A model generated the notes under the pieces. It did no database searches. It had not been told where the DNA came from and saw only the letters and a program-made list of their open reading frames with translations. 64,000 nt of DNA from Anaeromyxobacter sp. Fw109-5 (lineage in GTDB: Bacteria > Myxococcota > Myxococcia > Myxococcales > Anaeromyxobacteraceae), in contig NC_009675.1 of assembly GCF_000017505.1 (NCBI RefSeq), forward strand, positions 3,853,001 through 3,917,000, in the 5' to 3' direction. A program made the position numbers and the translations under genes. The stretch's first letter is position 1, and the number at the start of each line of letters is the position of its first letter. Shown piece by piece: positions 5,248-48,381 of this stretch.

Positions 5248-5390
5248 GGTGCGGATCTCCCGATCTGGGGGAGACCTTGATATCGAGGGGGTCTGACGCA
5301 GCAGTGCGCCGGTGGCGCGACCGGAGATATTCTGCCAAGGCTCGACCGCATGCCCGCGTCGCTGGTACATGCGCCTCCCCGGGTACGAGA

Positions 5391-7881
5391 TTGACGGAAA
5401 GGCGAGAAGACATCGCGGGCGAACTGGCTCGTCTCGAGGCTCGACTCTCCGCCCTCGACGCGGAGCGAGCGGCCCTTCGCGAGCAGATCACGGCCGCGCG
5501 GCGCCAGTTGGCCGCAGTCGAGGCTGTGACGATCTCCGTCCCGAAGCTCCAGAGCTCGACGACGCCGATTCCCACGACGCACGCAGCCAAGGTCGCCCTC
5601 TTCGCCTCACTCTTCCGCGGCCGCGAGGACGTCTACCCGCGCTTCTGGACGAACGAAAGGAAGGGCACGAAGGGCTGGGCTCCAGCTTGCTCGAACGAGT
5701 GGAAGCGCCCGCTCTGCCAGAAGCCGAAGGTGAAGTGCGGCGAGTGCTCGCATCAGGCGTTCGGCTCGGTCACGCCCCAGGTCATCCAAGACCACCTGCA
5801 GGGTCACCACGTCATCGGCGTCTACCCGCTGATGCGCAGCGAGCGCTGTCACCTTCTAGCGATCGACTTCGACGAGGGCTCCTGGGCCGACGACGTCGCG
5901 GCGTTTGCCGAGACCTGCCGCGCCGTCGGCCTCCCCGCCGCCGTGGAGCGCTCGCGCTCCGGCAACGGCGCCCACGCCTGGTTCTTCTTCGACGAGGCGA
6001 TCCCTGCCGCCGTCGCGCGCAGGGTGGGTTGCTACCTGCTCACCGAGACCATGTCCCGGCGACCCGAGCTGAGCATGGACTCGTACGACCGGCTCTTCCC
6101 GAACCAGGACACGATGCCGCGCGGCGGGTTCGGCAACTTGATCGCCCTGCCCCTCCAGCGCGCGGCGCGCGAGCACGGCAACACCGTCTTCGTCGATGAT
6201 GCGCTTCGGCCTCACGCCGACCAGTGGGCGTTCCTCGCCGGCGTGCCGCGCATCCCGGCCGCGACTGCCGAGCTCGTCGCCCGCGAGGCGCAGCGCCAGG
6301 GGCGCGTCCTCGGGGTTCGCTTCGCCGCCGTCGATGAAGACGACGCGCCGTGGGCGCGCTCGCCGTCAGGCCGCCTGCCGCGGACCGCCTTACGGGACCC
6401 CCTCCCCGAGGCCGTGCGCATCGTGCGGGGACAGCGGCTGTTCATCGAGAAGGCCGGCCTGCCGGGCGGATTCGTGACCGAGCTTCGCCGCCTCGCCGCC
6501 TTCCAGAACCCCGAATTCTACAAGAAGCAGGCGATGCACCTCAGCACCAGGGGAACGCCCCGCGTCGTGACGTGCGCCGAGGAGTCCGGCCCGTTCCTGA
6601 GTCTTCCACGGGGTTGCGAAGGCGACGCCGTGGCGCTCGTGACCGAGTGCGGCACCAAACCGGCGATGGACGATCAGCGCGCGAGCGGCGAGCCCGTCCA
6701 GGTCGAATTCCGGGGCGAGCTCACCGAGGTGCAAGCGCGCGCCGCGGCCGCGGTCCTGCCGCACGACATCGGGATGGTGGTCGCCCCGCCGGGCACCGGG
6801 AAGACCGTGCTCGGAGCGGCGCTCGTCGCGAAAACGAGGCCTCAATACGTTGGTCCTCGTGCACCGGAAGCCTCTCCTCGACCAGTGGGTCGCACAGCTT
6901 TCGGAGTTCCTCGGCATCCCGCGGAAGGAGATCGGCGTCATCGGAGGCGGCAAGCACAAGGGCACGGGCCGGATCGACGTCGCCATGATCCAGAGCCTCG
7001 TTCGGAAGGGACAGGTCGATGACATCGTCGCCGGATACGGTCACGTCATCGTGGACGAGTGCCACCATGTGTCGGCGAGCTCGTTTGCGCGGGTCCTCTC
7101 CGAGGTGAAGGCGCGCTTCGTCCTCGGCCTCACCGCGACCCCGCGCCGACGCGACGGGCACGACCCCATCGTCGAGATGCAACTCGGCCCCGTTCGCTTC
7201 GCGGTGAGCGCGAAGGCGTCCGCTGCCGCGCGCGGACTCGCCCACGGGCTCGTCATCCGGGAGACCTCCTTCGCGGCTCCCTGGAACCCTGGCGATGCGA
7301 TCCAGGACCTCTACGCGGCGATGGCGTCCGACGAGGTGAGGAACGCGCTCATCCTCGACGACGTGATCTCCGCGCTCGAGGGGGGCCGTTCGCCCCTGCT
7401 CCTCACCGAGCGCCGCGACCATCTCGAGTTCTTCGCCGAGACGCTCCGTGGCGTGGCGCGGAACCTGATCGTCCTGCATGGTGGTCTCTCAGCTCGGGAG
7501 CGCAAGGCCGCTGTCGCGTCGCTCGCAGCGATCCCCGCCGACGAGGAGCGCCTGGTGGTAGCCACTGGCCGTTACGTCGGCGAGGGATTCGACGACCCAA
7601 GGCTCGACACGCTCGTCCTCGCGCTTCCCGTGGCCTGGCGCGGCACCGTCGTCCAGTACGCCGGTCGGCTCCACCGGAAGCACGCCGGCAAGACCGAGGT
7701 GCGGATCCACGACTACCGTGACGAGAACGTGCCCGTTCTGGCGAGAATGCTGGAGAAGCGGATCCGAGCGTACCGCGCGATCGGCTACGAGATCGAGGAG
7801 GCGGCGCCGCGGTCGGCGCCCGCCGAGCACGTCATCGAGTACGACGAACCCCCGGAACCTGGGTCGGCAGTGCGCGAATGA
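5391..7881 (+). pseudogene. TOTE-type archaeo-eukaryotic primase / SF2 helicase fusion, split by a +1 base frameshift
   Basis: Two frames together encode one protein. The first starts at a TTG at 5391: an N-terminal coiled coil (residues 11-44), a Cys cluster (C100, C109, C116, C119), then the primase-like domain with AIDFDEG (D159, D161), SGNGAHAW (190-197) and YDRLFPNQD, features of the primase domain described for TOTE conflict systems. The helicase begins with Walker A APPGTGKT at about 6783-6806. The frame is lost at AAAA (6831-6834). Removing one A gives AKRGLNTLVLVHRKPLLDQW and continues through DECHH (about 7054) and a C-terminal QYAGRLHRKH motif to 7881. Either a disrupted gene or a one-base sequence error. 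The likely role is NTP-dependent genome defence. Confidence 0.85.
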
Positions 7882-8097: not shown

Positions 8098-8144
8098 TGA
8101 GTCGGGGAGACAGGATTTGAACCTGCGACCCCTTGGTCCCGAAC
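8098..8144 (-). repeat. attL: Left attachment site: orphan 3' half of tRNA-Pro
   Basis: These 47 bp are identical to 48304-48350 in the same orientation. In the intact gene they run from the anticodon loop through the T arm and acceptor 3' strand to four bases past the end. Upstream on the minus strand the sequence departs from tRNA at once (8145 onward), so no tRNA can form here. This is the expected scar of site-specific integration into a tRNA 3' end. Confidence 0.9.
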
Positions 8145-8342: not shown

Positions 8343-9725
8343 ATGAAGGCCGAGAACTTCACGACGGAGTGGCTCGCGAACCAGAAGCCCGCGCGCCGGA
8401 CCGAGATCGCGGACCGCGGCGAGGGCTCCCGCCGGGTCAACGATCGGTCCGGCCTCGTGGTCCGCATCGGGCCCGGCGGCGCGTCCAAGGTGTTCTTCCG
8501 CTGGGAGGACGCGCGCGATCCCGCGACCGGGAAGGTCCGCCGGCGCCGCGTGCGGATCGGCGCATGGCCGACCGTCTCGCTCGCCGACGCGCGCAAGGCG
8601 GCCCTCCAAGCGCGCACGCTGGACCGCGCCGAGAACTCGCCGAGCGCAGATCTCACCGTGAAGCAGATCGCCGAGGCGTACCGCCGCGACGCCCTCTCGC
8701 ACCGCAAGCACCGGTCGGCAGCGTGGTCCTGGGGCATCATCGAGACGCACGTCCTCCCCGCGAAGCCCAACGCTCGGCGCGCGCCGTTCGGCGAGTGGAG
8801 CGCGCGCAGCGTCCGCGCCCCGGACATCGGGGCCGTGGTCCGCGCGGCCTTGGTGAGACGCATGATGGAGCTCTCGTCCGAAGGGATGCCCGGCAAGACG
8901 ATAGTGCGCGCGGTCGGCGGCCCGGCCGTGGCGCGCGCGGTGCTCGGCGAGATCAAGGCGATATTCGTGCACGCCTGCGCGACGGGGACTCTCGAGGCGA
9001 CCCCTGCCGCGGTCTTACACGCGCGGGCGTTCGGACTACGCAAGTCGGAACGGGCCCGGTTCCTCAATGCCGAGGAGATCGGCGCCCTCTTCGCCGCCTT
9101 GGACGTGACCGCGCTCCTCGATGGGACGGCGAAGGACCGAAAGCTCTCCAAGACAGTGCGGCTCGGGATCGCGTTCCAGCTCTACGTCCCGACGCGGACG
9201 CACAGCATCATCGGCGCACGCTGGGACGAGATCGACGAGAAGGCGAAGCGTTGGACCGTCCCCGTCCATCGGCTGAAGCTCCGTAAGGAGGACGCAGCCG
9301 AGGCACGGCCGTTCGTGGTTCCCCTCCCCGGCACCGCGCTCGCCATCCTCGAGCGGCTCCGCACCGAGGCCGGCAAGAGCCCTTGGGTTCTCGCGAGCCC
9401 CAAGGACCCCGAGAAGCACATCGGAGAGAAGGTGCTCGTCCGCGCCCTCTCCCGCTTGCAGGACGGAAAGCGCCTTGCGCTGCGCGAAGGGCTCACGGTC
9501 CACGATCTGCGGCGCACATGGCGCAGCCTCGCCATGGACCTCGGCATCGACCACGCCGTCGCGCGGCTCTCCCTCGGGCACGCGGGGCTCGAGGGCGTCG
9601 AGGGCGTCTACGGTCGCTCCCAGATGGTCGAGCAGCGCGCCCAAGCCGCCGAGCTCGTCGCCGCGGCCCTCGATCGGATCCGGCTTGGCGAAGCGGCGCA
9701 GGTCGTTCCGCTGCGCGAACGATAG
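8343..9725 (+). CDS. int: P4-like tyrosine recombinase / site-specific integrase
   Basis: Integrase of 460 residues. The N-terminal part (LVVRIGPGGASKVFFRW...VRIGAWPTVSLADARKAA, residues about 35-95) matches the arm-binding DUF4102-type domain of phage P4-like integrases. The catalytic set is visible: R285 in PTRTHSIIGARWDEID, H387 and R390 in HDLRR, H in SLGHAG, and the nucleophile Y423 in GVYGRSQ. I chose the ATG at 8343 because GGGAGGGA lies just upstream; the frame is open further back but runs into the att site. It reads into the island from attL. P4-type integrases commonly target tRNA 3' ends, agreeing with the tRNA-Pro repeats. Probably the enzyme that inserted this island. Confidence 0.95.
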   Translation: MKAENFTTEWLANQKPARRTEIADRGEGSRRVNDRSGLVVRIGPGGASKVFFRWEDARDPATGKVRRRRVRIGAWPTVSLADARKAALQARTLDRAENSPSADLTVKQIAEAYRRDALSHRKHRSAAWSWGIIETHVLPAKPNARRAPFGEWSARSVRAPDIGAVVRAALVRRMMELSSEGMPGKTIVRAVGGPAVARAVLGEIKAIFVHACATGTLEATPAAVLHARAFGLRKSERARFLNAEEIGALFAALDVTALLDGTAKDRKLSKTVRLGIAFQLYVPTRTHSIIGARWDEIDEKAKRWTVPVHRLKLRKEDAAEARPFVVPLPGTALAILERLRTEAGKSPWVLASPKDPEKHIGEKVLVRALSRLQDGKRLALREGLTVHDLRRTWRSLAMDLGIDHAVARLSLGHAGLEGVEGVYGRSQMVEQRAQAAELVAAALDRIRLGEAAQVVPLRER

Positions 9726-11259: not shown

Positions 11260-11547
11260 GGGAACACTCCGTCGTGATCGAACGCTTGCTCCTCAGTGGA
11301 CGCTCGACCGCATCCGACGTGGCGTCTCGCGTGAGTCGCCGAACCACTCTGTGTACGGTGAGCACGGCGCGCGCGGCACGCGAAGTGTGCGGAGCTTCCG
11401 GAGGCGGAACCCGCCGGTGCGGTCTCGCGTGAGACCCGACCCGCCCAACACACGTGCGCCCGCATTGCCGGCACACGCTCGCTCGGCTTCTGGCGATCCC
11501 CTCCGCTTCCGGGTTGATTCCGGGGCGGCCGCGCGCATCGTTGGGGC

Positions 11548-34656: not shown

Positions 34657-36810
34657 CTATTGCCCCTGTCGGATCACGACGGTCCGCCCGGCGAGCCCCT
34701 CGAGATCGATCGTCATCTGACCGGACACGTTTCCCAGGTCCTGACCCGCGACGATGTCGCGCGCCGGCCCGGAGACGCCGCCCCCGGGAACGTTGCCGAT
34801 GTCAACGTTCACCGAGGTCGAGTCGCGCCCGTAATTGAGCGCGGTGACCGCCAGCCCGCCATTGTCCGGGAGCCTCATCACCAGGACGACCACGGCCTGG
34901 TTGTCCACGTTGGGCACCGCGACCACCTCGGACTCGTGGATGCGGTTGTCCTTGCGGGCCCGGAGGATCGTCTTGAGCTGGCTCGCGAACGAGTCCGGAT
35001 TCCCGAGCTGCTCCGGCAGCGGACCATAGAGGGTCTGGGCCTTCGGCAGCCCGAACGCGCTCGTCTGCGCGTTCGGGTCCGCGCCCATCAGATCGACGCC
35101 GCCGCGGTTGATCCACCGGAAGTCGCCGTCCGCGGTCCGTTCGGCCACGGTCTCCTCCCGGAGCGGCAGCGCGCCCACGAGGTCCCAGGCCGAGACGGCG
35201 AACACGCCGGGCTGCATCGCGTTCGCCATGGCGACGAGGATGTGTGCGCGCTGGATCTGCCCGACCTGGTCGGGGGTGGCGTTGTACGGGTCGCGGACCC
35301 CTAGCGCAGGGGCGATGAAGCCCGCGATGGTGGTGGCGACGCCGTCCTGCTCCGGGCGATACAGCCGGTTGAAGGGCGCGGCCTCTCCGGCGACTCCCGC
35401 GCGCATCTCCTGCAGGATCTTCTCCTTCAGCTGAGGGCCGGTCGTGGTCTCGCCGCCCAGCCGGATCTCGCCCTGGGAGCCCAGGTTCACGAGCTGGTAC
35501 GTGATCTCGTCGTGGTTCTGCAGATCGTGGATGAGCTCGCCGTGCTTGATTTCCTTCTCGAGCAGGAGCTGGTGCTCCAGTCGGCACGGTCGCGCGTCCT
35601 GGGTAATCACCGGATGGAAGCACTCGGCGCGGGTGAAGAAGTCGTAGCCCAGGTCCGGACCGTGCGTCCCGAAGTCCTTGAACTGATCCATCGGGACGTT
35701 GAGCTCCTGGAACGACCAGCCCCCGATCTTGCGCAGGAACATCGCGATGTCCTCCGTGCCAAGCTCGGCGAGCGGGGTATCGAAGTAGTCCGTCAGCGGC
35801 TGATCCGGGTTCGGCTCGATGCCGAGGAACGGCACCGCGTCGAGCCGCACGAAGAGGTTCCTGAGGTCATGGACGTGCCGGACCGCGTCCCCCTGGACCG
35901 CGCGGCGCCCGGCGTAGGACGGGTCGAGCCAGTTGAGCGCGGGCTGGCCGGGCTTGAACACGTGGAGGTACACCGAGCGTCGCCGATTGCCGTCCACGTC
36001 GGTGACTTCCGGGGTGGCGCTCCAGCCGCTCCAGGTCTTGGCATCCGGATGGGCGTCGGCGGAGTTGATGAGGCCCGGGATGTAGCCCTTGTTCTTCAGC
36101 TCCACCGCGGCTTCCTTGGAGACTAGCGCGGTCCCGTAGGGATCATCGACGTTGGGGAGCAAGCCCCAGTCCTCCTGACGGATCGCGACCATCGTGTACA
36201 TGCCGGGATAGTCCTTGTAGCCGCGCTCGGCGAGCCGGAAGTCGGCCCCGAGGCCGGTGTGGAGCGGAACGAGGTCGCCGCCGACCCACCCGCCCCGCTC
36301 CTCGGCGACCTGGACCATCTGCCGGTAGTCCTCCTCGGTCCCGAGCTGCGGATCGATCTCCAGCGAGATGCGGTCGAACCAGCCGTCGATGGTCGGGGTG
36401 TACTCGCGGTCCCGGATTCCGCCGGCTCGCAAGGTCGGATTGGTGTGGATCGCCTCGATGCCGACGTCCCGGAACGCGTCCCAGAGCTGCGTGCTTCCCA
36501 GGGTCCCGATGACCGACTTGCCGGGCTCGGGGATCACGGAGCCGGGATAGTAGAGCACCCACACCGAAGCCCTGCGGACGAGCTCCTGCGGCTCCCGGTC
36601 GAAGTAGTCGTTCCGCCACTGGTCACCCATGCCGGAGATGGCCTCCGACTGCTGCCCCGCCTGGAAGAGCATCGAGCGGGGCTCCAGGAACTGGACGTAC
36701 TCGTTGACGTCCTGTTGAGCAACGGCTGCGTTGAACCCGACGAGCGCCGCCAGCAGGCCAGCGATCAGCGTCGGCCGCCGGACGAGACGGCGCATGGTGT
36801 TGCTGGACAT
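34657..36810 (-). CDS. Exported GH13 alpha-amylase-family enzyme, trehalose-synthase-like
   Basis: The 717-residue protein has a signal peptide (MRRLVRR, then LIAGLLAALVGFNAAVA, cleavage near AVAQQ). The TIM barrel is GH13-like: FVRLDAVPFLGIEPN contains the region II nucleophile Asp, and DLQNHDEITYQLVNLGSQ is region IV. Spacing resembles trehalose synthase or maltose glucosyltransferases, but region III is not obvious as EANQ-type, so the exact activity is open. The C-terminal beta domain holds ALNYGRDSTSVNVDIGN. The ATG at 36808-36810 has a GAGGAGGGG ribosome site. It is transcribed away from the GH66 gene; the 298 bp between them must hold divergent promoters. A role in converting external alpha-glucans is inferred. 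Confidence 0.75.
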   Translation of the reverse strand: MSSNTMRRLVRRPTLIAGLLAALVGFNAAVAQQDVNEYVQFLEPRSMLFQAGQQSEAISGMGDQWRNDYFDREPQELVRRASVWVLYYPGSVIPEPGKSVIGTLGSTQLWDAFRDVGIEAIHTNPTLRAGGIRDREYTPTIDGWFDRISLEIDPQLGTEEDYRQMVQVAEERGGWVGGDLVPLHTGLGADFRLAERGYKDYPGMYTMVAIRQEDWGLLPNVDDPYGTALVSKEAAVELKNKGYIPGLINSADAHPDAKTWSGWSATPEVTDVDGNRRRSVYLHVFKPGQPALNWLDPSYAGRRAVQGDAVRHVHDLRNLFVRLDAVPFLGIEPNPDQPLTDYFDTPLAELGTEDIAMFLRKIGGWSFQELNVPMDQFKDFGTHGPDLGYDFFTRAECFHPVITQDARPCRLEHQLLLEKEIKHGELIHDLQNHDEITYQLVNLGSQGEIRLGGETTTGPQLKEKILQEMRAGVAGEAAPFNRLYRPEQDGVATTIAGFIAPALGVRDPYNATPDQVGQIQRAHILVAMANAMQPGVFAVSAWDLVGALPLREETVAERTADGDFRWINRGGVDLMGADPNAQTSAFGLPKAQTLYGPLPEQLGNPDSFASQLKTILRARKDNRIHESEVVAVPNVDNQAVVVLVMRLPDNGGLAVTALNYGRDSTSVNVDIGNVPGGGVSGPARDIVAGQDLGNVSGQMTIDLEGLAGRTVVIRQGQ

Positions 36811-37108
36811 GGTTCTACCCCTCCTCCACGTCGCACGATCGCGAGATAGCGAGACGCGCGAGCGAGACTTGACGAAAGGTAGATGCTGCGCGTCACCCTG
36901 CTCGCGTGGACGCCCTCTCCGCGAGCCGCCGCTGAGCTCACGAGTGCGGTCCGGGTCGGCGCCTCGCGCGGAGAGAGCACACCCGCCTGGCGACGAACGA
37001 CAGCAACCGAGCGTCACGTCCGCCGGCCGTGAGTTGCTCCTCGCTCGCGGCTCCAGCCGATCAAGCTGCGCGCGCCGCGAGGCGGACGCATGTTGCCGAG
37101 GGGGGAAG

Positions 37109-39352
37109 ATGCCGGACCGGTCGGCCGTAAGGAGCAGGTCGTGCTTCGCCATGCCGCTCCCCGTCGCGGTGGTGGTCGTCGTGGCGCTCGTCGGCTGCGC
37201 AGCCCGCGCCGCCGCCGCGCCCGTCATCGACCTGCTCCCAGACAAGGCACGCTACGCGCCCGGAGAGGAGGTGACGCTCACCGCACGCGTCCAGGCCGGC
37301 ACCGAGGGGGAGTTCGTCGGCCCGGTCGCGATGTCCGTCTACCACCTCGACGCCGTGGTCCACGCCGACCGCCAAGAGGTTCGCGTGGCGCCCGGCGCGA
37401 CGGGCGACGTCACGTTTCGCTGGACGCCTCCGACGGAAGACTTCAGCGGCTACCTCGCGGTCGCCGACGCGGCGGGCACCGCCGCGACGACGGCCGTGGA
37501 CGTGAGCTCGTCGCCGTTTCGCTACCCGCGCTACGGCTACGTCTCCGAGTTCGACCCCGCCCTCTCGCCGCAGGAGCGCGAGCGCCGCGTCGAGCGGCTC
37601 TCGCGCGAGTTCCTCGTGAACGTCTACCAGCTCTACGACTGGGGCTGGCGCCACGAGAAGCTCGTCGAGACGGGACCCGACGGCCAGATCGTGCCGACCT
37701 GGACGGACCTGTTCGGGCGTCCCGTCGCCTGGACAGCGATCACGGGGTACGTGGACGCGATCCACCGGTACGGCGCCGCGGCGATGGGGTACGTGATGGT
37801 GTACGCGGCGCGCGAGGGCTACGCCGAGCGCTGGCCCATCTCGCCGGCGTGGGGGCTCTTCGCGCGAGAGGGCGCGCAGGACCAGCTGCACGTGCAGTTT
37901 CCGAACGACGTGTTCCTCTGGCTCTTTGACCCCATGAACCCGGGCTGGCAGTCCTGGGAGATCGCGCAGTACGTCGAGGCGGTGCGCCTCGCCGGGCTCG
38001 ACGGCGTGCACATCGACCAGCTCGGTCCGCGCTTCGACGTTCACCTGGCAGACGGCACGAGCGTCGACCTAGCGGCCCGCTTCGCGCCGTTCCTGGAAGC
38101 GACCAAACGCCACCTCATGCAGGGCCAACCCGATCGTTCCGCGTGCACGTTCAACCTCGTCGACGGCGCGGTGGATGGGTGGGCGACGCGCGAGGTGGCG
38201 ACTTCCTATCCGTGCGACTTCCTGTTCAGCGAGATCTGGTTCGAGGCCGACAGCTACGACGATTTGCGGCGGTACGCCGAGTACCTCCGCGGCCTGAGCG
38301 GAGGGCGCGCGGCGGTGTTCGCGGCGTACGCGCAGTACGGCGAGGAGGTCGGGCCGATCCACGAGGCGGAAGCGGCGCGCCTGCACGGCGTGCGGGTGGC
38401 GTCGGACCACCTGGGCTACACGGGGACCGGCTTCGTCGCGGCGCTCGAGATGGCGGGCGCCGCCATCACGTGGTCGATCGAGCTGAGTGAGCCGCAGAAC
38501 GTCTCCCTCGTCTTTCGCTTCGCCAACGCGAGCGGCCAGGTCGCCCGGCGTCAGGTGTCGGTCGACGGCGCCCCCGTCGGAGAGGTGAGCTTTCCTTCGA
38601 CCGCCGAATGGAGCGGCTGGTCCTCCGACGCCTACGTCCCGACGACGCTCGGGGCAGGGCGCCATGAGATCTCGCTGTCGGTCCGCCCTGGAGACGCCGG
38701 CGCGGTGAACGTCGACCACCTCGCGCTCGGCCGCTTCGACGAGCAGGCGTTCCAGCTCGCTGACGCCGTGATGTTTGCGAGCGGGGTGACCCACATCGAG
38801 ATCGGCGACGACGTCGCCGGGCTGGCGCACGAGTACTACCCGAACCTGTCGAAGAGCATCACGCCCGAGCTGCAGCGCGCGATGCGCCGCTACTACACGT
38901 TCTCGGCGGCGTATGAGAACCTGCTCTTCGCCCCCGAGGTCACGCCCGTCGATCCGGCGACGGCGCCGCTCGAGCTCCTCTCGGGACAGCCGCTCGGGAC
39001 CCAGGGCGCGAACGTCATCCACCCGATCTTCCGGCGTGCGCCCGATGCGGAGATCGTCCACCTCGTGAACCTCATGGGCGTGGACGACGACCGCTGGCGG
39101 AACGTGGCCCCGCCTCCCCAGCCGCAGACGGACCTCCGCATCCGATACCGTCTGCCCGCGGGCTCGCGCGCGATCGGCGTGTTCGTCGCGAGCCCGGATC
39201 TGCAGGGTGGCCGTCCAATGCCGCTCCCGTACACCACGAGCGAGGACACGAGCGGAGCGTTCGTGGAAGCGACGATCCCGCGACTCGAGTACTGGAACAT
39301 GGTCGTCATCCGCACGGCCCCCGTCGGCGAGCAACCGTCGCCACCGCCGTGA
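37109..39352 (+). CDS. Exported GH66 dextranase / cycloisomaltooligosaccharide glucanotransferase with inserted CBM35
   Basis: The 747-residue protein has an N-terminal signal (MPLPVAVVVVVALVGCAARA). An Ig-like domain (PDKARYAPGEEVTLTARV) precedes the GH66 barrel, which opens with RYPRYGYVSEF; the nucleophile Asp lies in LDGVHIDQLGPR and the acid Glu in CDFLFSEIWFEADS. A CBM35-like module (WSIELSEPQNVSLVFRFANA, about 455-575) is inserted before the final barrel part, the architecture known from cycloisomaltooligosaccharide glucanotransferases, although dextranases also occur in GH66. A C-terminal beta domain ends the protein. It cuts or cyclises alpha-1,6-glucan. GH15 follows on the same strand after 131 bp. 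ATG at 37109 or 37151. Confidence 0.85.
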   Translation: MPDRSAVRSRSCFAMPLPVAVVVVVALVGCAARAAAAPVIDLLPDKARYAPGEEVTLTARVQAGTEGEFVGPVAMSVYHLDAVVHADRQEVRVAPGATGDVTFRWTPPTEDFSGYLAVADAAGTAATTAVDVSSSPFRYPRYGYVSEFDPALSPQERERRVERLSREFLVNVYQLYDWGWRHEKLVETGPDGQIVPTWTDLFGRPVAWTAITGYVDAIHRYGAAAMGYVMVYAAREGYAERWPISPAWGLFAREGAQDQLHVQFPNDVFLWLFDPMNPGWQSWEIAQYVEAVRLAGLDGVHIDQLGPRFDVHLADGTSVDLAARFAPFLEATKRHLMQGQPDRSACTFNLVDGAVDGWATREVATSYPCDFLFSEIWFEADSYDDLRRYAEYLRGLSGGRAAVFAAYAQYGEEVGPIHEAEAARLHGVRVASDHLGYTGTGFVAALEMAGAAITWSIELSEPQNVSLVFRFANASGQVARRQVSVDGAPVGEVSFPSTAEWSGWSSDAYVPTTLGAGRHEISLSVRPGDAGAVNVDHLALGRFDEQAFQLADAVMFASGVTHIEIGDDVAGLAHEYYPNLSKSITPELQRAMRRYYTFSAAYENLLFAPEVTPVDPATAPLELLSGQPLGTQGANVIHPIFRRAPDAEIVHLVNLMGVDDDRWRNVAPPPQPQTDLRIRYRLPAGSRAIGVFVASPDLQGGRPMPLPYTTSEDTSGAFVEATIPRLEYWNMVVIRTAPVGEQPSPPP

Positions 39353-39483
39353 CTCATTCGCACGGTCGCCGCGCCGCGTCCCCCTTCGGACGCTCCCGCG
39401 CAGGCCTCGGCGCGGGCATCGTCTTGACATCCGTCGAGTTCACGGATGGTCGCGAGCGTTCCGCCGCGCGGAAAGGAGTCGGT

Positions 39484-42096
39484 ATGCGGGTCCATGGATT
39501 CCTGGTCGGCGCTGTAGTGGCGGTCGCTGCGATGTCCGGTTCGCGTGCGGGCGCCCAGCAGCAAGCATGCACCGCGCAGCTCCCCGCGACGTTCGAGGCC
39601 GAGGACGCGCAGCTCCAGGGGCTCGAGGTGGCGGCGGAGGGCGGCAGGGGCTACGTCACGGCCTTCACGGACGAGAGCGATCAGGTGGCGTTCCAGGTCT
39701 GCGCGCCCGAGTCCGGGTACTTCACCTTCGACTTCACGTACGCGAAGGGCACGGACGGGATCGCCCTGCGCACGCTGCAGGTGGACGGCCGGCCCTACCC
39801 GGGCCAGCCTGCGTTCCCGCCGACGTGGGGGTGGAGCGCGTGGGGGAGCGGCGGCCGGCGCGCAATCCACCTCGACGCGGGGGAGCACACGATCGCGCTC
39901 GCGTTCCTGCCGACGGACTCCGGCGAGCTCCGGCTCGACAACATGGTGATGTCGAGCGGACCGACCCCCTCGGACGTGTCGGTCCGGTCGCTGCTCATGA
40001 ACAACTGGGAGAGTCTGGTGGTCGGCTGGCACGCCGCCGTCCTCTACCCCAAGGACGACATGGGCTTCGGCCCGCGGATGACCGCGTTCCACTGGGCGAA
40101 GGACTGGCCCACGAACCAGATCGACGAGGCGCAGGCGTTCTTCCGGGACGAGACGGGCAACACCTCCTACACGGACACCCGCGAGTTCGACACGACGGCG
40201 TACTTCACGGCGAGCGACGGAGAGGGATTCGGAGAGATGCGCGTCGCGTACGGCGGCTACGCCAAGAGAGCGGTCCCGATGAGCGTCACCCGGCGGATGA
40301 TCGTGCCGCCCGGCGAGAGCTTCGCGCTCGTGCTGTACGAGCTCGGCAACGTGACCGATGCCTCCAGACAGCTCTCGATCCTGGAGTGGGCCGACCTGCA
40401 CAACAAGAACTCAGGGCCGAGCGAGGACCCGGTGAACATCCGTGGAGCATCGCCCGGCGGGGGCGGCGGGACCCTGAACGCCATCTGGGACTCGCAGCGC
40501 AATGCCTGGATCGCGGACATGAGCCAGACGAACGGAACGTTCGTCGTGATCGGCTCCTTCGGACCGGTGGATCGCCACGTCGCCGGAGCGCCGGTGACCG
40601 GCGGCCCGGACAGCGGGGCGGAGACGGTGAGGAGGTTCGCGACCGGACCGTCCGCGCTCGGCGACTCCGACTCGTTCTCGGGGCAGGACGTCGGCATCGG
40701 GATGTCGAGGACGGTCACTCTCGAGCCCGCCCGGACCGAGCAGATCGCGTTCTTCTACGGGATCGCAGACTCGCTCGACGGCGCGAGGGCTCTCGCGGAC
40801 GACATCAGGAGGCCCGGCGCGCCCGAGGTCTGGATCGATCAGAGCTCCGCGCAGTGGAAAGGCTGGCTTTCGTCCGGGAGGGCCGCATCGCTCGACACGC
40901 CCGTGCGGCAGTGGGCGGAGGCGCTGCGGATCGGGCTGGTGACGAACCGGCAATCGCAGCAGCCGGAGTTCGGCAGCTTCGTCGCCGCCACGAACCCTGC
41001 CTACAACTACAGCGTCTGGGTTCGTGATTCGTCGGTCGTGGCCATGGGCTTCGACGTGGCCGGCCATCTCGACGAAGCGGAGAAGTACTGGACCTGGATG
41101 GCGCAGGCGCAGCAGACGGAAGGGTCGAACCCGAACGTCCCCCCGGGAACGTGGTGGACCAACTACAGCTTCTTCGCGCACAAGCTGGAGATCCCGTTCG
41201 TGGAGCCGGAGCTCGATGCGAACGGCCTGTTCCTCGTCGGGACGTATCGTCACCACGCCGCGTTGAAGCCCGTCGACGCCGGTCGCGCAGCTCGGTTCCT
41301 CGAGACCGTCTGGCCGGCCGTGCAGAGGGCCGCAGACTTCGTCCAGCGCGAGATCGGCAAGGCCGAGAACCACGGGTTCGGGGCGCCGGACTTCTCCATC
41401 TGGGAGGAGGAGCTCCAGTACTGGACGTTCACGCAGGCGACGTACGCCGCGGGCCTCCGCGCCGCGCAGCTCCTCGCGGAGGAGCGGCAGGACTCGTCCA
41501 AGGCCGAGAACTGGGGGCGGGCCCGAGACACCGTCCGCGACGCCATCTCGCGCGACACGTCAACCTCGCCGTGTCCCGGCCTGTGGCACGCGACCCTGAA
41601 CTACTTCGTCCGCGCGGTCCGGCCGGACTGCACGCTGGACCAGCGCCTCGACGGCGCGACCGACCTGCTCTGGGTGTTCGGCGTGCTGGATGCGACGCAC
41701 CCACGCACGGCGCAGCACCGCGAAGCCGTCCTCGCGAATTTGACGCCGGGGGAGTTCGGCTTCGGCATCTCTCGCTACGAGGGCGACGAGTTCTACCACG
41801 CGTCGCAATTCAGCCCCGGCGGTCAGAACGAGGCGAACGGGTCGATGCCCGTCTGGCCACAGATGTCGATGTACATGGCCATGCTCGAGCACTGGCTCGG
41901 AATGGACGACCTGTCGCGCAACCGGCTCTCCTGGTACGTCGCCACGACGCACGTCGGCTACCAGCCGCAGGGCGAGGCCGTCGACTGGACGACGGAGCGC
42001 CCCCTCGTGTCGACCTCGTCCGAGCCCGTCACCGCGACGTGGTACCTGCTGGCGCTCTTCAACCAGCTCGGCTTGTTCGACCCGCGGTTGCCCTGA
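39484..42096 (+). CDS. Exported GH15 glucoamylase/glucodextranase-like enzyme with CBM35
   Basis: The 870-residue secreted protein has a signal peptide (FLVGAVVAVAAMSGSRAGAQ). A CBM35/CBM6-type module follows (FEAEDAQLQGLEVAAEGGRG to HLDAGEHTIALAF, residues about 30-150), then a beta-sandwich and a helical (alpha/alpha)6 domain. The latter contains YNYSVWVRDSSVVAMGFDVA, the acid Glu region SIWEEELQYWTFTQA and the C-terminal TERPLVSTSSEPVTATWYLL, as in GH15 glucoamylases and glucodextranases. With GH66 next to it, hydrolysis of isomaltooligosaccharides or dextran to glucose is the likely role. I chose ATG 39484, preceded by GGAAAGGAG. Activity is inferred. Confidence 0.82.
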   Translation: MRVHGFLVGAVVAVAAMSGSRAGAQQQACTAQLPATFEAEDAQLQGLEVAAEGGRGYVTAFTDESDQVAFQVCAPESGYFTFDFTYAKGTDGIALRTLQVDGRPYPGQPAFPPTWGWSAWGSGGRRAIHLDAGEHTIALAFLPTDSGELRLDNMVMSSGPTPSDVSVRSLLMNNWESLVVGWHAAVLYPKDDMGFGPRMTAFHWAKDWPTNQIDEAQAFFRDETGNTSYTDTREFDTTAYFTASDGEGFGEMRVAYGGYAKRAVPMSVTRRMIVPPGESFALVLYELGNVTDASRQLSILEWADLHNKNSGPSEDPVNIRGASPGGGGGTLNAIWDSQRNAWIADMSQTNGTFVVIGSFGPVDRHVAGAPVTGGPDSGAETVRRFATGPSALGDSDSFSGQDVGIGMSRTVTLEPARTEQIAFFYGIADSLDGARALADDIRRPGAPEVWIDQSSAQWKGWLSSGRAASLDTPVRQWAEALRIGLVTNRQSQQPEFGSFVAATNPAYNYSVWVRDSSVVAMGFDVAGHLDEAEKYWTWMAQAQQTEGSNPNVPPGTWWTNYSFFAHKLEIPFVEPELDANGLFLVGTYRHHAALKPVDAGRAARFLETVWPAVQRAADFVQREIGKAENHGFGAPDFSIWEEELQYWTFTQATYAAGLRAAQLLAEERQDSSKAENWGRARDTVRDAISRDTSTSPCPGLWHATLNYFVRAVRPDCTLDQRLDGATDLLWVFGVLDATHPRTAQHREAVLANLTPGEFGFGISRYEGDEFYHASQFSPGGQNEANGSMPVWPQMSMYMAMLEHWLGMDDLSRNRLSWYVATTHVGYQPQGEAVDWTTERPLVSTSSEPVTATWYLLALFNQLGLFDPRLP

Positions 42097-42620: not shown

Positions 42621-43415
42621 ATGACTTGGTGGCATGATCTCAAGCCGCACCCTCTGCTCAAGTACGTGCCTCGGCACACACCCGAGGAGCTGGACGAGCT
42701 GGAGAAGCGAGTTCGGGCAGCCGGCCGAGTCCGCGATCCCATTCGCCTCGTGGTCAGCAGCCGGACAGGCGAAAGGGAGATCGTCGACGGCCTCGGGCGA
42801 TGGGAGGTCGGGAAGCGCGCCGACATCGAACCAGCGTTCGAGGACCTCGGCCCCGAGGAGGACATCGACGTGGCCGCCGTCATCCTCGACTACGCGACCC
42901 GCCGCTACGTCTCGGGCGCCCAGAAGGTTCAGATGTACCTCGACCTCCACGAGCGCTCGGAGCAGTGGCAGCGGGAACGTGAGCAGACGCAGGCTCGTGC
43001 GAACGCGGCTCGTTCGGAGAAGGCGAAGGCGCAGGGGCGCACGGAGGGCGGACACTTCGGAGCGAAGTCAGCCGGTGCGGTCTCGGTTGAGACCCGACCC
43101 GGCTACCGCGAGCGCGATCGCATCGCCGCGGCAACCGGCACATCGGCCGCGACGGTGTCGCGCGTGCTCGCGAGCAGGAGAGGCGCGGTCAAGCAGACGC
43201 CGAGCTGGAAGAGACTGCACGACCTGCTGAACACCGCGACGAAGTCGCTCGGGGCAGCATCCGCGCTCGCCACGCAGCTGAACGCGAGCGACATGGCGAA
43301 GGAGATCGACAAGGTCAAGGATCAGGCGCATCTCGTCAGCGCCAAGGTCGCGGTGGAGCCTGATGGTAAACGGACAGTGGAACCTCTGCCCGGTGAAGGG
43401 CCGTGTCACCCCTGA
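42621..43415 (+). CDS. ParB/KorB-like nuclease-fold protein
   Basis: The 264-residue protein begins with a ParB N-terminal type domain: HPLLKYVPRHTPEELDELEK, VRDPIRLVVSSRTGEREIVD, GLGRWEVGKRADI. The usual ParB box Arg patch (GERR) is not obvious; REIVDGLGRWE takes the place of the xxDGxxRxxA motif. A charged helical middle follows (QWQREREQTQARANAARSEK), then an HTH (IAAATGTSAATVSRVLASRR) and a C-terminal KDQAHLVSAKVAVE helix. It probably binds DNA as a partition-like or regulatory protein of the island, as in many integrative elements. There is no ParA gene nearby. A copy of its C-terminal end is found at about 43990-44140. Confidence 0.72.
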   Translation: MTWWHDLKPHPLLKYVPRHTPEELDELEKRVRAAGRVRDPIRLVVSSRTGEREIVDGLGRWEVGKRADIEPAFEDLGPEEDIDVAAVILDYATRRYVSGAQKVQMYLDLHERSEQWQREREQTQARANAARSEKAKAQGRTEGGHFGAKSAGAVSVETRPGYRERDRIAAATGTSAATVSRVLASRRGAVKQTPSWKRLHDLLNTATKSLGAASALATQLNASDMAKEIDKVKDQAHLVSAKVAVEPDGKRTVEPLPGEGPCHP

Positions 43416-48303: not shown

Positions 48304-48350
48304 TGAGTCGGGGAGACAGGATTTGAACCTGCGACCCCTTGGTCCCGAAC
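48304..48350 (-). repeat. attR: Right attachment site, within the intact tRNA-Pro
   Basis: Identical over 47 bp to 8098-8144. It covers the anticodon loop to four bases beyond the tRNA 3' end. Identity stops exactly at 48351, where the tRNA continues and the left copy does not. Confidence 0.9.
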
Positions 48351-48381
48351 CAAGTGCTCTACCAGGCTGAGCCACTCCCCG
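48308..48381 (-). tRNA. tRNA-Pro (anticodon CGG)
   Basis: The 74-base gene lacks an encoded CCA. Acceptor CGGGGAG pairs with CTCCCCG, with discriminator A at 48308. The D arm contains GGCTCAGCCTGGTAGAGC, the anticodon stem is CTTGG/CCAAG around loop TTCGGGA (anticodon CGG, reading CCG), and the T arm is CAGGTTCAAATCCTG. All stems pair. The 3' half is the island's integration target. Confidence 0.95.

Follow-up and report, generated by a model that had tools for sequence, protein, structure and literature searches.

The window analysed here, a stretch of 64,000 nucleotides from Anaeromyxobacter sp. Fw109-5, contains three neighbouring genes whose products belong to families GH13, GH66 and GH15, and which lie within an element bounded by copies of a tRNA-Pro end (Table 1). 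All three genes are intact frames with good coding character, each preceded by a ribosome-binding sequence and showing a high GC3. A hydrophobic, signal-like N-terminus was recognised by eye in each of the products, and that of GH66 contains a lipobox-like LVGC, which makes a lipoprotein possible. Signals of this kind take a protein at least as far as the periplasm of a Gram-negative cell, and these N-termini suggest that the three enzymes would act outside the cytoplasm. The GH66 and GH15 genes share one strand and are separated by 131 bp, a spacing from which co-transcription is predicted as likely, and the GH13 gene is on the opposite strand. Promoter and terminator consensus scans over the trio gave no matches, such consensus being little informative for this organism. 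A previous sequence-only reading of this region had proposed three exported alpha-glucan enzymes as island cargo; the intact genes, the signal-like N-termini and the catalytic residues, which are present in the alignments of GH66, GH15 and GH13, agree with the first part of that proposal.

Table 1. Features of the trio and of the enclosing element. Positions are those of the window; GH66 residues are numbered from the Met at 37151, not from the start at 37109.
Feature	Coordinates	Strand	Remarks
attL-like copy of tRNA-Pro 3' end	8098..8144	.	47 nt exact repeat
Tyrosine integrase	8343..9725	+	Arm-DNA-bind_3 domain; NCBIfam NF007246 integrase domain; just inside attL
TreS-like GH13	36810..34657	-	717 aa; corrected start; SD GGAGGAGGGG
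GH13 catalytic motifs	within 34657..36810	-	RLDAV (D324), FQELN (E369), QNHDE (D434)
CITase-type GH66	37109..39352	+	747 aa from 37109; corrected start; SD GAGGGGGGAAG
GH66 putative nucleophile Asp289 (GVHIDQLG)	38015..38017	+	aligned with CITase catalytic Asp
GH66 putative acid/base Glu361 (LFSEIWF)	38231..38233	+	aligned with CITase Glu
CBM35 inside GH66 catalytic barrel	38360..38728	+	residues 404-526; Pfam; collinear with 3wnk insert
DDase/46GT-type GH15	39484..42096	+	870 aa; N-terminal signal and CBM35; corrected start; SD GGAAAGGAG
GH15 N-terminal CBM35, N1-like	39583..39957	+	residues about 34-158; 32% identical to GH66 CBM35
GH15 putative acid/base Glu641 (SIWEE)	41404..41406	+	equivalent to DDase Glu671
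GH15 dyad Phe770-Tyr771 (S4)	41791..41796	+	equivalent to DDase Phe797-Tyr798
GH15 dyad Gly830-Glu831 (S5)	41971..41976	+	equivalent to DDase Gly857-Glu858 (nucleophile)
attR-like copy, 3' part of tRNA-Pro(CGG)	48304..48350	.	47 nt exact repeat
tRNA-Pro(CGG)	48307-48381	-	overlaps attR-like copy

The Pfam model PF13199 covers GH66 along its whole length (2-546/546; 556.6 bits), and the closest solved proteins are the cycloisomaltooligosaccharide glucanotransferases (CITases) 3wnk (E 5e-186) and 5x7g (E 2e-181). Identity with 3wnk is 40.6% across 690 residues, the inserted CBM35 included, and the two catalytic residues are kept. The dextranase 5axg matched GH66 with an E value of 1e-72, in an alignment interrupted at the CBM35 insert, and a dextranase reading of the protein is disfavoured by both score and architecture. 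By its sequence GH66 is a CITase-type enzyme, as had been anticipated from the inserted CBM35, and its family would predict a cyclisation activity. Alignment of this CBM35 with those of CITases revealed that the Trp of the canonical site is retained and that the lateral-site Trp (Trp514/515 of CITases) is a Tyr, with two neighbouring residues also changed. In CITases these sites have been tied to chain guidance and product size, and a W515A mutant lost about 65% of its output of cycloisomaltooligosaccharides (CIs) (PMC5408701). In known CITases the lateral Trp adjusts the product, but it does not serve as a family-defining residue; in view of the changed sites, the size of the rings is not predictable.

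GH15 consists of a PF00723 domain preceded by a CBM35, which is weak in Pfam and clearly matches the CBM35s of CITases (E 9e-12), so that the CBM35 earlier assigned to this protein is borne out. Its sole close solved relative is the dextran dextrinase (DDase) 9ju0 (E 1e-99), and identity with the catalytic part of DDase is 42%. According to a 2025 paper, DDase works as a retaining transglucosidase although its family had long been considered inverting, the DDase cluster is marked by Phe-Tyr and Gly-Glu dyads, and a CBM35-like N1 domain occurs in about half of this cluster and in no other GH15; the same authors caution that the catalytic Glu residues alone do not reveal the mechanism of a GH15 protein (PMC12446779). 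Both dyads are found in our GH15 (Table 1), where the subsite -1 residues of DDase are conserved as well, and both are missing from the five GH15 proteins compared (four myxobacterial and one from Paenibacillus). In addition, Glu831 is followed by Ala at the position where inverting enzymes have Gln, and S5 ends in STSSEPVTA as it does in DDase. In a tree of 11 sequences the protein groups with the N1-bearing DDases (support 100/99), the Caballeronia sequence coming next, and the DDase group is separated from other GH15 proteins with support 100/100. In residues and in phylogeny GH15 belongs to the DDase cluster of retaining transglucosidases, and the corresponding activity would be expected from that family. 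Identity as an inverting glucoamylase or glucodextranase was rejected on the same two grounds, as neither the Gln nor an inverting S5 is present and the tree places the protein elsewhere. GH15 thereby illustrates a case in which routine annotation says glucoamylase-like and the residues say retaining transglucosidase. Unlike the N1 domain of DDase, its CBM35 keeps the canonical-site Trp in the alignment, and on the basis of this one residue it may bind alpha-1,6-glucan. The C-terminal beta-helix of DDase is missing from GH15; DDase deprived of it produces mainly megalosaccharide and far less polymer (PMC12446779).

GH13 scored under the Pfam cut-off (20.5 bits). The TIGR02455 model (TreS_stutzeri) matches its residues 35-708, nearly the whole model, with 581.7 bits, which is below the curated cut-off of 719.4 bits, and the catalytic Asp, Glu and Asp common to Pseudomonas stutzeri-type trehalose synthases are kept. 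Relatives that are 40-43% identical were found on plasmids of Paraburkholderia, Rhizobium and Arthrobacter, and the two full-length plasmid relatives compared have no signal peptide. GH13 is in sequence a divergent trehalose synthase (TreS) of the Pseudomonas stutzeri type, distinguished from that type by its score and its signal peptide, and is predicted to be exported and active, in line with its previous description as a secreted, trehalose-synthase-like protein. As canonical TreS, TreY, TreZ, GlgX, GlgB and GlgE are also encoded on the host chromosome (by inspection), the island protein would be an additional enzyme with a different cellular address.

These genes are rare among relatives. 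GH66 exceeded the Pfam cut-off in one of 195 genomes of the phylum, which is the genome studied here, and TIGR02455 matched, among 193 phylum genomes, in this genome, with one further hit that is weak and partial. A DDase-type GH15 was present in none of 98 relatives, the remaining matches being distant GH15 or CBM35 domains. Among 398 sampled Pseudomonadota, the GH15 alignment found no match apart from its Caballeronia centre, and none had a full-length GH66. A scan of genome contigs with the GH15 alignment, based on narrow patterns that missed the Bacillota relatives known from the literature, yielded no hits beyond Acetobacteraceae and a single Caballeronia. The plasmids searched contained nothing comparable to GH66 or GH15, and the phages and viral contigs nothing comparable to GH15. 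The search for the same trio elsewhere was negative, as no other searched genome holds GH13, GH66 and GH15 together. Gluconobacter vitians carries two full-length GH66 genes, on contigs other than that of its DDase. Twelve Myxococcaceae proteins carry CBM35 domains in tandem, and these are related to the CBM35s of GH66 and GH15.

The second part of the earlier proposal, that the trio is island cargo lying beside chaperones, holds as well, since the exact tRNA-Pro repeat and the integrase delimit a stress-rich element of 40.2 kb. The genome is a single contig of 5.28 Mb. The GC of the island is 0.699 vs 0.753 in the right flank, and its GC3 0.916 vs 0.964. The right flank is common to two congeners (84-85% identity) and this similarity ends at the tRNA; the left sides of the congeners also differ. 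Among the cargo are a ClpG/ClpK-like disaggregase, two Hsp20, HdeD-like, PsiE, BON and Usp proteins, G6PD, transketolase, GlgX and DJ-1/PfpI. The ClpG/ClpK-like protein remains below the curated cut-off of its best model, ClpG (1319.7 vs 1900 bits). No sugar transporter, CI-binding protein, permease or dextranase was identified among the annotated genes of the island, which agrees with the previous remark that a sugar transporter is not nearby. Considering the att repeat, the integrase, the synteny break at the tRNA and the rarity in the phylum, the three genes most likely came in with the island. The island resembles the tLST of Proteobacteria in bringing ClpG/ClpK-like, Hsp20, HdeD-like and PsiE genes together on a mobile island, and differs from it in the ClpG/ClpK score under the cut-off, in its extra carbohydrate and redox cargo and in the remaining tLST genes, which were not seen in Pfam scans.

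Taken together, the trio probably constitutes a horizontally acquired module for alpha-glucan conversion that would act outside the cytoplasm, its activities, coupling, location and purpose being read from sequence. Judging from the families, GH15 would move non-reducing-end glucosyl units of maltodextrin onto alpha-1,6 chains, Glu641 serving as the acid/base and Glu831 as the nucleophile, and GH66 would close these chains to CIs, the inserted CBM35 guiding the chain. A third and more speculative step would be the conversion of piled-up maltose to trehalose by the exported TreS. The kcat/Km of DDase is 0.032 for maltose vs 22 for maltotriose, a difference of about 700-fold (PMC12446779), and from this poor use we infer that maltose should accumulate and feed TreS. 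The sequence-only reading had the three enzymes jointly processing dextran-like alpha-1,6-glucans. The DDase type of GH15 makes it most likely that the set, instead of processing dextran already present, synthesises and cyclises alpha-1,6-glucan from alpha-1,4-glucan, and GH13 would use maltose and not dextran. A weak point of the proposed route is the extracellular supply of maltodextrin, as a secreted GH13 amylase was not recognised in the genome, which counts against it.

With regard to purpose, the stress genes carried by the island favour protection, with modest confidence. The complete version of this reading, in which a mobile module makes cyclic alpha-1,6-glucans and trehalose from one maltodextrin pool outside the Gram-negative cytoplasm, as protective solutes and not food, and spreads with protein-quality-control genes, is possible and we put it forward tentatively. 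The products could instead serve in carbon scavenging, as in Tepidibacillus, maltodextrin being turned into cyclic or long alpha-1,6-glucans that few competitors use and that the cell imports and degrades. The core enzyme pair is indeed shared with CI-producing Bacillota, for which CI uptake and internal breakdown have been described (PMC13084667), two SBP_bac_8 binding proteins are encoded elsewhere in the genome, and the G6PD and transketolase of the island would be consistent with such a use. However, with no CI-binding protein, permease or dextranase on it, the island departs from the Tepidibacillus model, and the exported GH66 is the single one in a genome that has no GH31, so we consider scavenging unlikely.

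A contribution to a matrix or biofilm, in which GH15 would make a dextran exopolysaccharide, the CBM35s would anchor the enzymes and GH66 would trim the chains, seems quite improbable. The Gluconobacter DDase does convert dextrin to dextran (PMC12446779) and the canonical-site Trp is kept in both CBM35s, but GH15 lacks the beta-helix on which the polymer yield of DDase depends, and a neighbouring CITase would cut the chain length. The least probable of these explanations is a catabolic one, with GH66 as an endo-dextranase and GH15 as an exo-glucosidase digesting environmental dextran and starch to glucose. Although dextranases also occur in GH66 and glucodextranases in GH15, and CITases too have some hydrolytic activity (PMC5408701), GH66 is much nearer to CITases than to dextranases and the GH15 residues are those of the retaining cluster, not of the inverting enzymes.

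The module proposed here has its nearest known counterpart in a cluster of Tepidibacillus decaturensis encoding a GH15 4(6)-alpha-glucosyltransferase, a CITase and a CI-binding protein, for which a route from maltodextrin to CI was proposed (PMC13084667). Both clusters combine a retaining-type GH15 with a CITase, but ours belongs to a myxobacterium, forms part of an integrative island, has an exported TreS alongside, and lacks a CI-binding protein, ABC permease and dextranase within that island. In the CITase of Thermoanaerobacter thermocopriae, which makes long isomaltooligosaccharides and CIs, GH66 is fused to a DDase-like GH15 (PMC12446779, PMC13084667); here the same two catalytic domain types are encoded by separate adjacent genes, each with its own signal and CBM35. 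The DDase of Gluconobacter oxydans (9JU0, PMC12446779) shares with our GH15 both dyads, the acid Glu and a CBM35-like N-terminal domain, and differs from it in having no N-terminal signal, no canonical Trp in that domain and a beta-helix. Paenibacillus sp. 598K converts starch to CI by two secreted enzymes, a GH31 6-alpha-glucosyltransferase and a CITase (PMC5408701), so its first step relies on GH31 instead of GH15. The core of GH15 glucosyltransferase and CITase is already known in some Bacillota, and what is new is the setting and combination, not the chemistry: such a pair in this phylum, on a mobile stress island, accompanied by an exported TreS and with neither transporter nor dextranase nearby. 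In the literature and databases searched, a myxobacterial mobile stress island and an exported TreS partner for a GH15-CITase pair were not found. The route described in a few Bacillota would extend to a mobile element of a myxobacterium, coupled with an exported TreS. If active, the enzymes would provide a pair encoded by separate genes for obtaining cyclodextrans from starch hydrolysate, and a role of cyclic dextran in stress tolerance would become testable.

Some other features of the island and its borders were recorded. Near-identical short repeats occur within it at 29860-29942/32988-33070 (89%) and 22767-22822/32893-32948 (95%), and these, with one pair at the ends of BON-domain genes, suggest recent duplications. 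The ORF at 42621-43415, after GH15, has no Pfam or NCBIfam match, looks by eye like a ParB-type partition protein and has a 67-nt repeat in common with 11404-11470. Left of the island, positions 297-2095 encode an AbiEii nucleotidyltransferase toxin and an AbiEi antitoxin (type IV TA), and at 5277-7881, just left of attL, an AEP-TOTE primase ORF is followed by a ResIII helicase ORF in a different frame, which points to a TOTE conflict system, possibly frameshifted. Extra copies of the tRNA-Pro end are present in the congeners (C1:3664224 and 3675577 in G002; C1:4565441 and 4581992 in G007), suggesting further islands at the same tRNA.
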